Assembly (NCBI GenBank): GCA_028345195.1
Contig: JAOMCX010000004.1
Location: forward strand, 1-64,000
Source: Candidatus Nitrosopelagicus sp.
GTDB lineage: Archaea; Thermoproteota; Nitrososphaeria; Nitrososphaerales; Nitrosopumilaceae
Direction of reading: 5' to 3'
Length of the DNA: 64,000 bases
Shown here: piece after piece, positions 46,396 to 51,488 of the stretch
How positions within the stretch are numbered: the first letter of the stretch is position 1
Layout: each line of letters opens with the position of its first letter
Notes under the pieces: model-generated
What the model was told of the DNA's origin: nothing
Seen by the model: only the letters and a program-made list of their open reading frames with translations
Database searches by the model: none
Made by a program: the position numbers and the translations under genes

Positions 46396-46695
46396 ATGAA
46401 TGGACCTGCTCTTTTGAAGTGTATTTGTGATGAAACTAGATTTGAGATACTAGAATTATTACAAAAAGATAATGAATTATGTGTAAATGATTTTGTTGAG
46501 AAATTAGAAAAAGATCAACCTCTCATCTCGCATCACCTTAAAACTCTAAAAAATTGTGGGATTGTAAAATCTCGTAATGAGGGAAAAAAAGCAATGTATG
46601 CAATATCAAACCCACAACTATCTACTTTGATATCAAATGTTACAAAAACAAGCAAGAAAATCCCACATCTTTGTACAACTACCGAGTGTTGCTAG
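46396..46695 (+). CDS. arsR: ArsR family repressor
   Basis: 99 residues of winged-helix ArsR/SmtB type (FEILELLQ, LISHHLKTLKNCGIV). Cysteine 29 sits in ELCVND, the place of the classic metal site ELCVCDL where one of two Cys is missing, and the C-terminus ends LCTTTECC (Cys93, 98, 99), giving an alternative thiolate site. Binding of arsenite to these cysteines would release it from the operator at 46354-46389. It converges on the SbtB-like gene with a 4-base overlap. Confidence 0.88.
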   Translation: MNGPALLKCICDETRFEILELLQKDNELCVNDFVEKLEKDQPLISHHLKTLKNCGIVKSRNEGKKAMYAISNPQLSTLISNVTKTSKKIPHLCTTTECC

Positions 46696-46994
46696 AACTT
46701 TTCAGTTCTAACTACGCCAACATCACTAACGTACAAAATTATGGTAAAATCTGGAAATAATGTTCTAGATATATCCTCAATTACTGCTGATAATTTCTCT
46801 TCACGCATAATTACTTCAACTTTGACATTTTTTTCAGATTGTATGCCTTGACCTCTTAGTCCCTTTTCTCCATTACCATCAACTTCATAAGATGTGTATC
46901 CTGTAATTTCATGATTCTTCAAAATATCAATGACATTTTTTTGTGCCAATATCTCACAGGTGATTGTAAGTAATTTTACATCATAAAGTTTCAT
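46692..46994 (-). CDS. PII-like protein, SbtB type
   Basis: 100 residues with the ferredoxin-like fold of PII signalling proteins: KLLTITCEI start strand, GYTSYEVDGNGEKGLRGQG as T-loop region, and VEVIMREEKLSAVIEDISR. The GYTSYEV-GNGEKGLRG pattern resembles SbtB, which in cyanobacteria binds the bicarbonate transporter SbtA and senses cAMP/AMP. The gene overlaps the end of the SbtA-like gene by 4 bases (stop and start), so the pair is translationally coupled, as sbtAB are. Confidence 0.85.
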   Translation of the reverse strand: MKLYDVKLLTITCEILAQKNVIDILKNHEITGYTSYEVDGNGEKGLRGQGIQSEKNVKVEVIMREEKLSAVIEDISRTLFPDFTIILYVSDVGVVRTEKF

Positions 46995-48073
46995 ATGAAC
47001 ACCCTTGTAACGTAATTGAATAAGTCTATTGCTTCTTCACCATGTACCCACGTTGAAACGGTGAACATGATTGGCAGTAACACGATAATATTGTATGGGA
47101 ATGTAATTCCTAAAGCTGATGTAATGTATAGACTTGGATTTGCTTGAGGGATTGCATGACGTAAAACAGCTGGTGCTGCAATAAATGATGCACTAGCCAA
47201 AAGTAATCCAAACATAACTGCCCCGCCTAAACTTAATCCCAATGCTGTTGAAACTAGTACACCAATTATTCCATTAATTGTTGGCATTATTATTGCAAAT
47301 GAGGTAAGAAAAACTCCGACCTTTTTGATATCTTCTAATCTTTGTCCTGCAATTATTCCCATCTCAATCATAAAAATTACTATTGCTCCTGTAAACAGAT
47401 CATCAAAAACAATACTGATTGGTTCAAAACCTTCTTCTCCAATTATGTATCCAATTACAATACTTCCAAGTAAAATTACTATTGCTTTTCCTGTAATTGA
47501 TTCTTTTAACACCTGAGAAAGTTTTGTTTTAGTTTCTTTCATTCCCATGTCGATATCAGATACTTTGTCACCTGAAAATGACTGTTTTTTTGTACGAATT
47601 TGTTTTGATACTGCCATATTTGTCAAAAATATTGCCAGGATGAATGCTACCGGTTCTAACACTGCAAGAATTGCTGCCAAATATCCTTCTGATGTAACTC
47701 CTTGGTTTTTGAGAAATGACAATCCTACTGAGAATGTTACTGCTCCAACTGCACCGTATGTGGATGCTAATGCGTATGAATCAAAGATGTTGAATTTCCC
47801 TAATCTTCTTAGAATTTGATAATGGTTCAATGTGAATAATAATGACAGACCTATTGCAACTAGCATTGGTACTAACATCTCCTCAAAACCCGTCTTTCTC
47901 ATCTCTATTCCTCCATGAAGGCCGATAGCAGCTAGGAGGTATATCGGCAAAAACTCTGAAATTGCTTCAGGAATTTTTAAATCAGATTTTATTCGTGCTG
48001 CAATAATCCCAAACAAGAAGAATAGGATGATTGGAGTTAGCAGATTCGATTGGATTAATTCTAAAATATCCAT
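46991..48073 (-). CDS. sbtA: Sodium-dependent bicarbonate transporter, SbtA family
   Basis: 360 residues, about ten membrane helices, matching the DUF897/SbtA-type sodium-dependent bicarbonate permease. Segments such as IPEAISEFLPIYLLAAIGLHGG, LEPVAFILAIFLTN and FGLLLASASFIAAPAVLRHA near residue 300 agree with the two inverted repeats of the family. Likely imports HCO3- for the 3-hydroxypropionate/4-hydroxybutyrate cycle in an autotrophic ammonia oxidiser; function inferred from the family. Confidence 0.88.
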   Translation of the reverse strand: MDILELIQSNLLTPIILFFLFGIIAARIKSDLKIPEAISEFLPIYLLAAIGLHGGIEMRKTGFEEMLVPMLVAIGLSLLFTLNHYQILRRLGKFNIFDSYALASTYGAVGAVTFSVGLSFLKNQGVTSEGYLAAILAVLEPVAFILAIFLTNMAVSKQIRTKKQSFSGDKVSDIDMGMKETKTKLSQVLKESITGKAIVILLGSIVIGYIIGEEGFEPISIVFDDLFTGAIVIFMIEMGIIAGQRLEDIKKVGVFLTSFAIIMPTINGIIGVLVSTALGLSLGGAVMFGLLLASASFIAAPAVLRHAIPQANPSLYITSALGITFPYNIIVLLPIMFTVSTWVHGEEAIDLFNYVTRVFI

Positions 48074-48144
48074 TAGCTATATTTGAAAAAATTTTCTGCT
48101 GAAATAAAAATCCAGAGGTCATTTTTGATGCCTATAGTGATAAT

Positions 48145-48165
48145 CATTTGATATGCATTTGATAT
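48145..48165. promoter_or_regulatory. Two direct 10-bp repeats in the sbtA / PII-fusion promoter region
   Basis: CATTTGATAT at 48145-48154 and again at 48156-48165: exact copies with an 11-base period, about one helix turn. They lie between the divergent starts of sbtA (48073) and the PII-fusion gene (48226). A tandem operator is plausible. Confidence 0.4.
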
Positions 48166-48225
48166 AATATTCCATAGTTTCGAAATAATGATTATGTATA
48201 ATAAAGAATAATTCAGCGAAATATT

Positions 48226-48792
48226 ATGAAGAAGATTGAAGCTATAATCAACCGAAAAAATTACCCTGTTCTTCGTGAAAAATTAGATTCTTTGGGTATT
48301 GACATTATCGATAAACGAAATTTAGAAGACAGTAAATTCATCAGTGAATCAAAAGGTTCTCGTGCTGGTGGAACTGGTGTTAGATCCACAATGCTTGCAA
48401 AAATTGAACTGGCTATGCAAGACAAAGAAGCACGTGCGGTCCTAGAGATAATTTCTAAGAATTCAGGTCTTCCTCAATCTATCAAGAGTAAAATTTTTGT
48501 CTTTGATATGGAAGAAAGTATTGATCTATCCACTCTTGAAGGCCAGGCTGATGTAGAACCTGAAGAAAAACCTATTCCTGTTAGATTTACTACAAAACGT
48601 AATAGATTGGTTCCACTTCAAAAGCGAACCTTGTACAAATTAGAACAATACTATGATGAGCATAGTGAAATTTTAGAATCTGACTATAGAATTCGTTCAT
48701 TTAGCGATTTTGTTAATTATTGTATCTTGAAATATCTTCCAACCCTAGATAAGCAATTAAAGAATCCAACAATGCTTTACGAAGATATTTAG
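48226..48792 (+). CDS. PII-like protein fused to a C-terminal domain with possible RHH fold
   Basis: 188 residues. Residues 1-108 follow the PII pattern: KKIEAIINRKNYPVLREKL, GSRAGGTGVRSTMLAKIEL, and VLEIISKNSGL...IFVFDMEESID, so a ligand-sensing ferredoxin-like trimer is likely. Residues 118-172 (PVRFTTKRNRLVPLQKRTLY ... SFSDFVNYCILKYL) look like a beta strand plus two helices as in ribbon-helix-helix DNA-binding proteins. This fusion, if real, would be a PII sensor acting directly on DNA; the assignment of the second domain is my inference. It stands between sbtA and the glnK operon. Confidence 0.7.
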   Translation: MKKIEAIINRKNYPVLREKLDSLGIDIIDKRNLEDSKFISESKGSRAGGTGVRSTMLAKIELAMQDKEARAVLEIISKNSGLPQSIKSKIFVFDMEESIDLSTLEGQADVEPEEKPIPVRFTTKRNRLVPLQKRTLYKLEQYYDEHSEILESDYRIRSFSDFVNYCILKYLPTLDKQLKNPTMLYEDI

Positions 48793-49322: not shown

Positions 49323-49652
49323 TTAGATAACTTCTTCCCCTTCGTTTCCGGATTTGATATCAATTGCCCGTAACATTTGTGAGATGAAAATTTTACCATT
49401 TCTTGCATTCTTCTTGATAATGTCTACTGTTTTTTCTTCTTTTGACTCTGGAACTACTACCATCATTCTATATTTGTCGCCAAAATGAGGTGTAAACACT
49501 TCCATACCTTTTGATGTGTGAATTTCAGGTTCAGTCTTTGCACCTCGACCTCTAACTTTGATAATTGTTAGTCCGCCAACGTCAATTTCTTTTAATCCTT
49601 CACTGATTTCCATCACGTCGTTTTCTGCAAGTATGACTTCAAGTTTTAACAT
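49323..49652 (-). CDS. glnK: PII nitrogen regulator, GlnK/GlnB family
   Basis: 109 residues. Core elements KLEVILAENDVMEISEGL, GLTIIKVRGRGAKTEPEIHT (start of T-loop), FGDKYRMMVVVPESK and GKIFISQMLRAIDIKSGNEG match the PII family. The uridylylated Tyr51 of enteric GlnB is not evident. It is divergently transcribed from amt, the usual glnK-amt pairing, and regulates ammonium uptake by binding Amt. It heads an operon with three small genes. Confidence 0.92.
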   Translation of the reverse strand: MLKLEVILAENDVMEISEGLKEIDVGGLTIIKVRGRGAKTEPEIHTSKGMEVFTPHFGDKYRMMVVVPESKEEKTVDIIKKNARNGKIFISQMLRAIDIKSGNEGEEVI

Positions 49653-49707
49653 GAATTATTTTATCTGTCAAAGTAATTAATAATTTAGAAATTGTACATC
49701 TTTTGAT

Positions 49708-49729
49708 TATCACTGATAACCAAATTGGT
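49708..49729. promoter_or_regulatory. Two adjacent palindromes between glnK and amt
   Basis: TATCACTGATA (49708-49718, 4-bp arms around a 3-base centre) is followed directly by the perfect palindrome ACCAAATTGGT (49719-49729). They are 57-36 bases before the amt start and about the same distance from glnK. Likely an operator for the nitrogen genes. Confidence 0.45.
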
Positions 49730-49764: not shown

Positions 49765-51057
49765 ATGATAGATACCGGAGACACAGCATGGATGTTAATA
49801 GCAGGATGCTTGGTTCTGTTAATGATCCCGGCACTTGGATTATTCGAGTCGGGTCTTTTGCGAAAGAAAAATGTGGTTTCGATTTTCATGCAGATCTTCT
49901 TTGGAATGTCACTCCTAAGTGTAATGTGGTTTGTCTTCGGATTCAGTCTATCATTTGGTCCATCAACACAGGGTATTATTGGTAATCTTGATTGGACATT
50001 TTTGAAAGGAATTCCTTGGGATGCACCTCTTGAACAGTACGCGCCAACAATTCCTGGTGTATTATTTGTAAAGTTCCAATTGATGTTTGCATGTATCACA
50101 CCTTTACTACTAACTGGAACTATCGCTGAAAGAATGAAGTTCAGCTCTTTTATCATATTCATATCTGCATGGTCAATGCTCATCTATTACCCAATCGTTC
50201 ACATGGTTTGGGGCGGTGGATGGTTAGCAGAACTCGGTGTAGTTGACTTTGCCGGTGGTATCGTTATTCACACTACTGTAGGAATGGCAGCACTTGCAGC
50301 CGCTTTAGTACTTGGAAAAAGAAGAGGATTTGGCCCTGCCATAAACATCCCTCACAGCATTCCTCTTGCAGTATTAGGATCTTCATTATTATGGCTAGGA
50401 TGGTTCGGATTTAACGCAGGAAGCGCACTTGCATCTGGAGGTGTAGCAGGAAATACTGTAATTGTAACCCACTTGGCATCCTCTGTATCTGCTCTAATCT
50501 GGGCTGGATTGTCTTGGATGCGTACAGGAAAACCATCTATTGTTGCTACAATAAACGGCGCTATTGCCGGTCTTGCAGGAATTACCCCTGCATCAGGCTT
50601 TGTCAGTGTAGAACATGCATTTGTTCTTGCAATAGCAATTGGTATCTTGTCATACGGAGGAGTCGTACTAATTAGAGATAAATTAAAAATTGATGATTCA
50701 CTTGATGTAAGTTCCGTACACGGTATTGCAGGAATTGTAGGTGCACTTGGAATTGGAATATTTGCAAGCACTTTGATTAATCCTGCAGGTGTTGACGGCT
50801 TGCTCATTTCTGGAAGTCTGGATCAAATCTGGATACAGGGTGTTGGAATTGCAGTAGCTGCTGCTATGGGCTTTGGTGGAACATGGCTACTTTTACAGTT
50901 AATCAAACATCTTATCGGTATACGTGTCGAACCAGAACAAGAAGACGTTGGTTTGGATATCAGTGAGCATGCAGAACAAGCTTACTCCGATGAAGAAGAA
51001 TTCAAGTTAAGTCTTGATGAAAAATTAGAGTCGTCAAAAAAGAAATCTAACTCCTGA
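49765..51057 (+). CDS. amt: Ammonium transporter (Amt)
   Basis: 430 residues, eleven predicted helices and a cytoplasmic C-terminal tail with Glu/Asp-rich end. Family segments: DTAWMLIAGCLVLLMIPALG, FGFSLSFGPSTQGIIGNLDW, VWGGGWLAELGVVDFAGGIVIHTTVGMAALAA (near 150, containing the first pore His, DFAGGIVIH) and VHGIAGIVGALGIGIF near 315 (second pore His). The N-terminus lacks the longer signal-like leader of some archaeal Amts. Supplies ammonium to the ammonia oxidiser; partner of the divergent glnK. Confidence 0.96.
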   Translation: MIDTGDTAWMLIAGCLVLLMIPALGLFESGLLRKKNVVSIFMQIFFGMSLLSVMWFVFGFSLSFGPSTQGIIGNLDWTFLKGIPWDAPLEQYAPTIPGVLFVKFQLMFACITPLLLTGTIAERMKFSSFIIFISAWSMLIYYPIVHMVWGGGWLAELGVVDFAGGIVIHTTVGMAALAAALVLGKRRGFGPAINIPHSIPLAVLGSSLLWLGWFGFNAGSALASGGVAGNTVIVTHLASSVSALIWAGLSWMRTGKPSIVATINGAIAGLAGITPASGFVSVEHAFVLAIAIGILSYGGVVLIRDKLKIDDSLDVSSVHGIAGIVGALGIGIFASTLINPAGVDGLLISGSLDQIWIQGVGIAVAAAMGFGGTWLLLQLIKHLIGIRVEPEQEDVGLDISEHAEQAYSDEEEFKLSLDEKLESSKKKSNS

Positions 51058-51098: not shown

Positions 51099-51488
51099 AT
51101 GGGAATGGCTGAAGAAATAGTAACTACACAATCTTATGAAAAACTTTGTAGTGATGTACTTTATTCAAATGAAAGTGTTCGTTTTGTAGGTTTGGTAAAT
51201 AATAAATCTGATTTACTACACAGTGTTCAAAAAAAAGATTTAGATCCACTTTTGGATGATGATGAAATAAAAATTTCAATAAATTATTCATTAGAAAGAT
51301 GGAGAAAAGCACAAAATCTTTCATTTCGTTTAGGTCATGAAAAACTCACACTAACTGAATATGAACATGTAACTTTAATTTCAATTCCATATGATGGAAA
51401 ATTATTACTAATCAGTACCCAGCCAACTATACATTATCATGAAATGATACAAGCAATCATTTCTGTAATTCCTCCGTGGGAGAATTAA
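51099..51488 (+). CDS. DUF6659-like uncharacterised protein
   Basis: 129 residues; the second ATG at 51105 is an alternative start. The sequence has the profile of a roadblock/longin-like or DUF6659 protein found in Nitrososphaerota (SESVRFVGLVNNKSDLL-type N-terminal segment, EHVTLISIPYDGKLLLISTQPTI near residue 90). Not secreted, no membrane helix. It follows amt on the same strand and is followed by the FAD-dependent gene after 4 bases. Confidence 0.65.
   Translation: MGMAEEIVTTQSYEKLCSDVLYSNESVRFVGLVNNKSDLLHSVQKKDLDPLLDDDEIKISINYSLERWRKAQNLSFRLGHEKLTLTEYEHVTLISIPYDGKLLLISTQPTIHYHEMIQAIISVIPPWEN

Follow-up and report, generated by a model that had tools for sequence, protein, structure and literature searches.

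Genomic context of the fusion gene

The window analysed here is a stretch of 64 kb from a Candidatus Nitrosopelagicus sp. contig. At 48226..48792 on the + strand it contains a gene of 188 aa, with an ATG at 48226, in which a PII domain is joined to a putative ribbon-helix-helix (RHH) domain; the feature is supported by the ORF, Pfam, orthologues and a conserved neighbourhood. The original prediction placed this PII-RHH fusion gene between sbtA and the glnK operon, and the ORF list and Pfam searches confirmed these neighbours. Divergent from the fusion gene lies the bicarbonate transporter gene sbtA (46991..48073, - strand; Pfam Sbt_1), which is overlapped by a second PII gene, SbtB-like by Pfam (46692-46994, - strand). 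On the other side, an ORF of 114 aa separates the fusion gene from its conserved partner glnK (49323..49652, - strand; Pfam and synteny), beyond which is amt (49765..51057, + strand), assigned to the glnK-linked type by Pfam, synteny and the distribution of Amt proteins. Three PII-family genes (SbtB-like, fusion and glnK) are found inside 3 kb of the window. A small gene of 129 aa (51099-51488) lies directly 3′ of amt and occupies the same place in several loci.

Full-length relatives of the fusion protein were identified in 10 of the 31 genomes of the window's genus, in 78 of the 200 genomes of the family and also in a second family of the same order; Archaeon HR04 encodes a relative (32% over residues 1-183). 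The occurrence of full-length relatives across two families, together with a tail that is the best-conserved part of the protein, indicates that the fusion is not due to chance. The observed gene order is likewise conserved. Among the loci surveyed, most genera carry the block in the order fusion→ ←glnK amt→, and the HR04 group has the fusion gene divergent from amt. A PII-like gene next to sbtA recalls SbtB, but the window has a separate SbtB-like PII gene from which the fusion gene is distinct; moreover, the fusion gene is linked to glnK-amt across genera and to sbtA only within one genus, where the two genes adjoin in only part of the loci surveyed.

In one genome (G157, locus L090) the fusion gene breaks off after residue 85 and has lost its adjacency to glnK and amt; here the fusion-glnK-amt module seems to have been lost or deleted as one unit. 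Elsewhere the fusion gene is frameshifted within the PII part (L002), interrupted by an in-frame TGA (L046) or split (L100), and these interruptions are decay or sequencing error. The architecture of the gene, a PII domain followed by a second conserved domain in a real 188-aa ORF, was confirmed.

A divergent PII domain forms the N-terminal half

Residues 1-106 (48226..48543, + strand) constitute a divergent PII domain as judged by Pfam PF00543, the AlphaFold (AF2) fold, Foldseek and alignment. The match to the Pfam P-II family (PF00543) extended over residues 1-101 and was a marginal pass (26.9 bits against a cut-off of 25, E 6.5e-6). AlphaFold, run on the single chain with a 20-sequence alignment, predicted the order E-H-E-E-H-E (E2-9, H10-22, E27-33, E57-64, H66-79 and E90-94); the alignments behind this and the other models are shallow. 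In a Foldseek search the top PDB matches were all PII proteins (4co3, E 4.8e-7). Pfam score, predicted order and structural matches thus bear out the earlier reading of residues 1-108 as a PII protein.

The fusion protein resembles GlnB/GlnK (PF00543) in its fold, its glnK-amt linkage, its above-cut-off Pfam score and its best structural matches, and differs from them by its extra C-terminal domain, by the absence of the signature patterns and by its ligand-binding loops. In the alignment, the RxRTGE of the C-loop is replaced by D-L-S-T-L-E, with the arginines gone, and most of the B-loop has disappeared, the lysine before I-F being retained; most residues of the two loops that bind ATP and 2-oxoglutarate are lost. 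PROSITE-type PII signatures for the uridylylation site and the C-terminal B-loop matched 0 of 61 homologues, a result that is a weak test, against canonical GlnB only, since the neighbouring glnK and SbtB-like PII proteins of the window likewise fail these patterns.

The loss of the C-loop arginines and of most of the B-loop, the missing signatures and the lower conservation of the PII half relative to the tail would all fit a protein that binds DNA but whose PII half senses nothing and serves only to trimerise, or to mix with a sensing GlnK. We regard this as rather unlikely. Strict conservation among the 61 homologues extends to the PII core, the K-I-F strand and a number of polar positions, which goes beyond the needs of a pure scaffold, and the failure of the signature patterns is shared with the neighbouring PII proteins. 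In the preferred reading the PII half would be a sensor and, because the canonical ATP/2-oxoglutarate motifs are degraded, it may use an alternative small molecule as its signal or may receive its signal through mixing with GlnK.

The C-terminal tail is highly conserved and is suggestive of an RHH domain

The PII domain is followed by a flexible linker (residues 107-123; 48544..48594, + strand), recognised by pLDDT values below 50 in the AF2 model at residues 107-127 and by alignments. Its length differs between species, being longer in HR04, and positions 112-123 vary freely. The RHH-like C-terminal domain occupies residues 124-179 (48595..48762, + strand) and was delimited by conservation, AF2 helices and profile comparison. 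In 61 distinct homologues this tail was observed to be more conserved than the PII half, with the consensus KR[SN]R[LF]VPLQK..TL..L...Y...K..L...Y[RK]I[KR]SFSDF[VL]N.CI..[YS]LP. Invariant or nearly invariant positions are K124, R125, R127, P130, L131, Q132, T135, Y143, L150, Y154 and I156, followed by S158-F-S-D-F-V-N-x-C-I; they include a basic block, KR[SN]R, and the motif SF[ST]DFxN.

The tail had been predicted to consist of a beta strand and two helices. AlphaFold modelled helices at residues 133-145, 147-153 and 159-179 in the full chain (pLDDT 81-92) and at 128-145, 147-154 and 159-179 in the tail alone. Helix A, a loop and helix B, the latter with S-F-S-D-F, are present. The strand was absent from these monomer models, in which residues 126-132, the presumed strand, were either coil or continued into helix A. 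As the strand of an RHH domain forms between chains, a single-chain model neither proves nor excludes this fold.

Direct searches returned no assignment. Residues 110-188 had no match of any kind in Pfam, RHH families included, and no PDB match was obtained either in a Foldseek search with the C-terminal model or when the PDB was searched with a sequence profile of the tail. Viral contigs contained no relative. A weak NCBIfam similarity of residues 108-153 to XerA/XerD (E about 0.01-0.02) was judged to be chance, as the alignment ends ahead of the conserved helix B.

The tail resembles the RHH repressors Arc, MetJ and CopG (PF01402) in helices A and B, in the S-x-S-[DE] motif of helix B and in a bridged profile match. 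It differs from them by ~8 extra residues between the core of helix A and helix B, by a proline within the presumed strand, by a hydrophobic residue where a DNA-facing position is expected, and by the lack of a direct Pfam match and of a modelled strand.

Relatives of the tail provided a link to the RHH families. Stand-alone relatives of 57 aa (L109), 70 aa (L108) and 81 aa (L152) contain a T-V-T-L strand pattern, and two stand-alone relatives gave sub-threshold Pfam matches to RHH_1/RHH_5 (E about 0.04) that cover the strand and helix A in one and helix B in the other. Many genomes of the family encode a protein of ~131 aa in which a tail-like N-terminal domain is followed by a Zn-ribbon-like, Cys/His-rich C-terminal half (L187-L193 and L235; e.g. 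L191:1489-1884, + strand); it belongs to no Pfam family above cut-off. Proteins of 182-195 aa (L231:1409-1954, - strand; L232, L233 and L234), which also lack a Pfam match above cut-off, appear to consist of three strand-helix-helix repeats of this same domain in tandem and are possibly single-chain multi-RHH proteins. The tail relatives read as strand-helix-helix, e.g. KTVTLREKVIEEI...RSFSDFLNFILDQYL, and L190 is without the ~8-residue extension and resembles a canonical RHH domain. Weak matches elsewhere in the phylum (G412, G446, G424, G356, G570, G379 and G380) were attributed to chance by E-value; the loci of G446 and G424 were opened and held no such small tail-like gene.

A bridged profile made of the fusion tail and all intermediates was compared by hhalign with 30 RHH_1 proteins of related archaea. 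The two aligned in register with a score of 20.6, against maxima of 13.8 among 200 column-shuffled profiles and 16.7 among 53 windows of unrelated proteins; a reversed profile scored 9.0 and ArsR-type HTH domains 7.0. For comparison, divergent true RHH_1 proteins scored 62.9 against the rest of RHH_1. The fusion tail alone scored 12.7, which is within the control range. The bridged profile thus exceeds all controls, and the profile of the fusion tails only does not. These comparisons are suggestive of RHH as the best assignment of the tail, by way of the intermediates.

Tandem arrays in the intergenic regions of the locus

The sbtA-fusion intergenic region contains an operator-like array of three units with 11-bp spacing, TGATAATCA-TT-TGATATGCA-TT-TGATATAAT (48138..48168), 57 bp ahead of the ATG of the fusion gene. 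Nothing else in the 64 kb matches two degenerate units (0.21 expected at ≤1 mismatch) or the three-unit form (0.06 expected at ≤2 mismatches). A degenerate operator-like pair, TGATTATCA-C-TGATAACCA, with 10-bp spacing lies at 49704..49722 in the glnK-amt region. Each of these two intergenic regions has one copy of the exact 11-mer AGTGATAATCA, and the window contains no other. Elsewhere in the window's genome, the best-matching array (C28:61450) is located beyond the ends of two convergent genes and was dismissed as chance.

In the window's clade the array was observed 50-61 bp ahead of the fusion gene irrespective of the upstream gene, be it sbtA, a ferredoxin-reductase-like gene or another. 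The array therefore follows the fusion gene and not sbtA; because it keeps its place in genomes with a different upstream neighbour, service to sbtA was rejected as its main explanation.

The glnK-amt array of the window's own species is degenerate; full 11-bp arrays are present in most of the orthologous regions. There the unit is a palindrome, TGAT(A/T)ATCA (TGAT[AT][AT]TCA), in 2-3 copies 11 bp apart. Two units at 11 bp, with ≤2 mismatches, were found in 93% of 41 distinct glnK-amt regions; at a spacing of 10 bp the figure was 15%, at 9 and 12-15 bp it was 0%, and in shuffled sequences ~0%. Three perfect units are present in 4 of the 41 versions, e.g. TGATAATCAAATGATAATCAAATGATAATCA. The typical distance of the array is ~43 bp to the start of glnK and 44-47 bp to that of amt.

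One genome (G134, locus L092) has units TGTATAACA/TGTATTACA in place of TGATAATCA, at the same 11-bp spacing and in the same place. This genome has two fusion genes. The altered units and the two fusion genes raise the possibility that operator and protein have co-diverged.

A tandem palindromic array at putative target promoters is, on sequence grounds, the layout of an RHH-type operator. It resembles that of Arc, whose tandem palindromic operator has its units about one helical turn apart. DNA binding by the fusion protein is supported indirectly by the presence of a conserved tandem array in the two intergenic regions that had been named beforehand as candidate targets. These DNA elements weigh more heavily as evidence than the sequence of the tail.

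Co-occurrence of the array and the fusion gene

The 200 genomes of the family were scanned genome-wide with the pattern TGATWATCANNTGATWATCA at ≤1 mismatch. Direct observation linked the array with the fusion: it was present in 54 of 200 genomes, comprising 51 of the 78 that are fusion-positive and 3 of the 122 that are fusion-negative, and the reversed pattern was found in 1 of 200. Fisher's test of this co-occurrence gave p 7e-24, a value that ignores, and is inflated by, the relatedness of the genomes. The three arrays in the fusion-negative genomes G036, G070 and G108 were located at unrelated genes, and the one in G167 was inside an unrelated ORF.

In genus g18, six genomes have the fusion gene far from glnK-amt, and their array is found in the remote glnK-amt region. 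In five genomes of genus g9 glnK-amt is kept, with an Amt ~74% identical, and both the fusion and the array are missing. Genus g9 is the one informative natural control for amt without the fusion, and it is a single genus. Its loci (L288-L292) carry glnK in two tandem copies, which are divergent from amt. Among the genomes without the fusion, those checked from the window's genus and from genera g12 and g15 encode only a distant Amt (~45% identical) or none, and, being without this amt, do not count as independent evidence.

The AT-richness of the palindromes, their position near both start codons and the AT-rich genomes in which they occur would be compatible with a core-promoter or DNA-structural element rather than an operator. 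This is very improbable, given the specificity of the spacing for 11 bp, the rarity of the array genome-wide and its absence from the orthologous glnK-amt region in the genus without the fusion.

A second alternative concerns the identity of the binding protein. The tail could serve for protein interaction, as an RHH-like or helical domain, and the array be bound by another regulator, such as the conserved RHH_1 protein of ~138 aa of these archaea or a protein of the Lrp/ArsR type. The RHH assignment is unproven (no Pfam match, no strand modelled, no PDB match), and the genomes encode other DNA-binding proteins, among them RHH_1 proteins and many HTH proteins. This explanation is nevertheless improbable. 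The conserved RHH_1 protein is present in G038, a genome of the window's genus that has neither fusion nor array, so its distribution does not match that of the array; the distribution of the fusion does, even in the genus in which the fusion gene lies apart from the array.

A proposed model for direct transcriptional control by a PII protein

Taken together, these data make it probable that the product of the fusion gene is a PII-RHH transcription factor that acts through TGAT(W)ATCA arrays on glnK, on the low-affinity amt and/or on its own gene. The protein would be a one-component factor in which a trimerising PII-type sensor is connected by a flexible linker to a ribbon-helix-helix-type DNA-binding domain. 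Paired RHH domains would read the TGAT(W)ATCA palindromes that recur every 11 bp, or about one helical turn, with one RHH dimer per palindrome and adjacent dimers on one face of the helix. Since the array in most species lies between the divergent start codons of glnK and amt, joint control of these two genes is probable. In the window's clade, where the best array is 57 bp ahead of the fusion gene, autoregulation is implied.

The direction of regulation would more readily be negative. Repression is slightly favoured over activation by the location of the array beside the presumed TATA/BRE region of glnK and amt, where the array-bound protein would exclude the archaeal basal factors. Because PII proteins trimerise and RHH domains pair, two PII trimers would supply exactly three RHH dimers for three units. 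The fuller version of the model, in which two PII trimers and three RHH dimers span the three units, the ligand state is converted into promoter occupancy and the protein is the hitherto missing regulator of nitrogen in many ammonia-oxidising archaea, is on balance doubtful.

A precedent for this architecture is NikR, a one-component regulator in which an RHH domain is combined with a ferredoxin-like, ligand-sensing oligomerisation domain. Compared by architecture, the fusion likewise has a putative RHH-type domain joined to a probable sensing oligomerisation domain; it differs in its reverse domain order and in having PII in place of the ACT-like domain of NikR. To our knowledge, known PII proteins influence transcription via partner proteins and not through DNA binding of their own, as in the PII-PipX-NtcA axis.

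According to PMC4836417, neutrophilic ammonia oxidisers of group 1.1a have PII genes near the low-affinity amt, on which basis the glnK-linked Amt of the window is probably of the low-affinity type, Amt1. PMC7490402 describes the low-affinity amt as missing from deep-ocean genomes and depressed under starvation, and amt expression as altered under ammonia limitation; the excerpts of these two papers name no regulator of amt. In literature excerpts the PII proteins of these archaea are mentioned only in the role of regulating uptake and assimilation. In the open-access literature searched, the titles and opening abstract lines of the papers returned described neither a PII-DNA-binding fusion nor such an operator; PII and RHH-type regulators are each known, and for their combination no report was found in these sources.

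Few signal proteins are as widespread as PII proteins, which are known for acting via protein partners. If the model is correct, a PII protein that itself carries a DNA-binding domain, and for which an operator can be recognised, would represent a direct signalling shortcut. The operator also allows an immediate test with a short DNA duplex. Ammonia-oxidising archaea are very abundant in sea and soil, and the PII-RHH protein would be a candidate switch for their low-affinity ammonium uptake.
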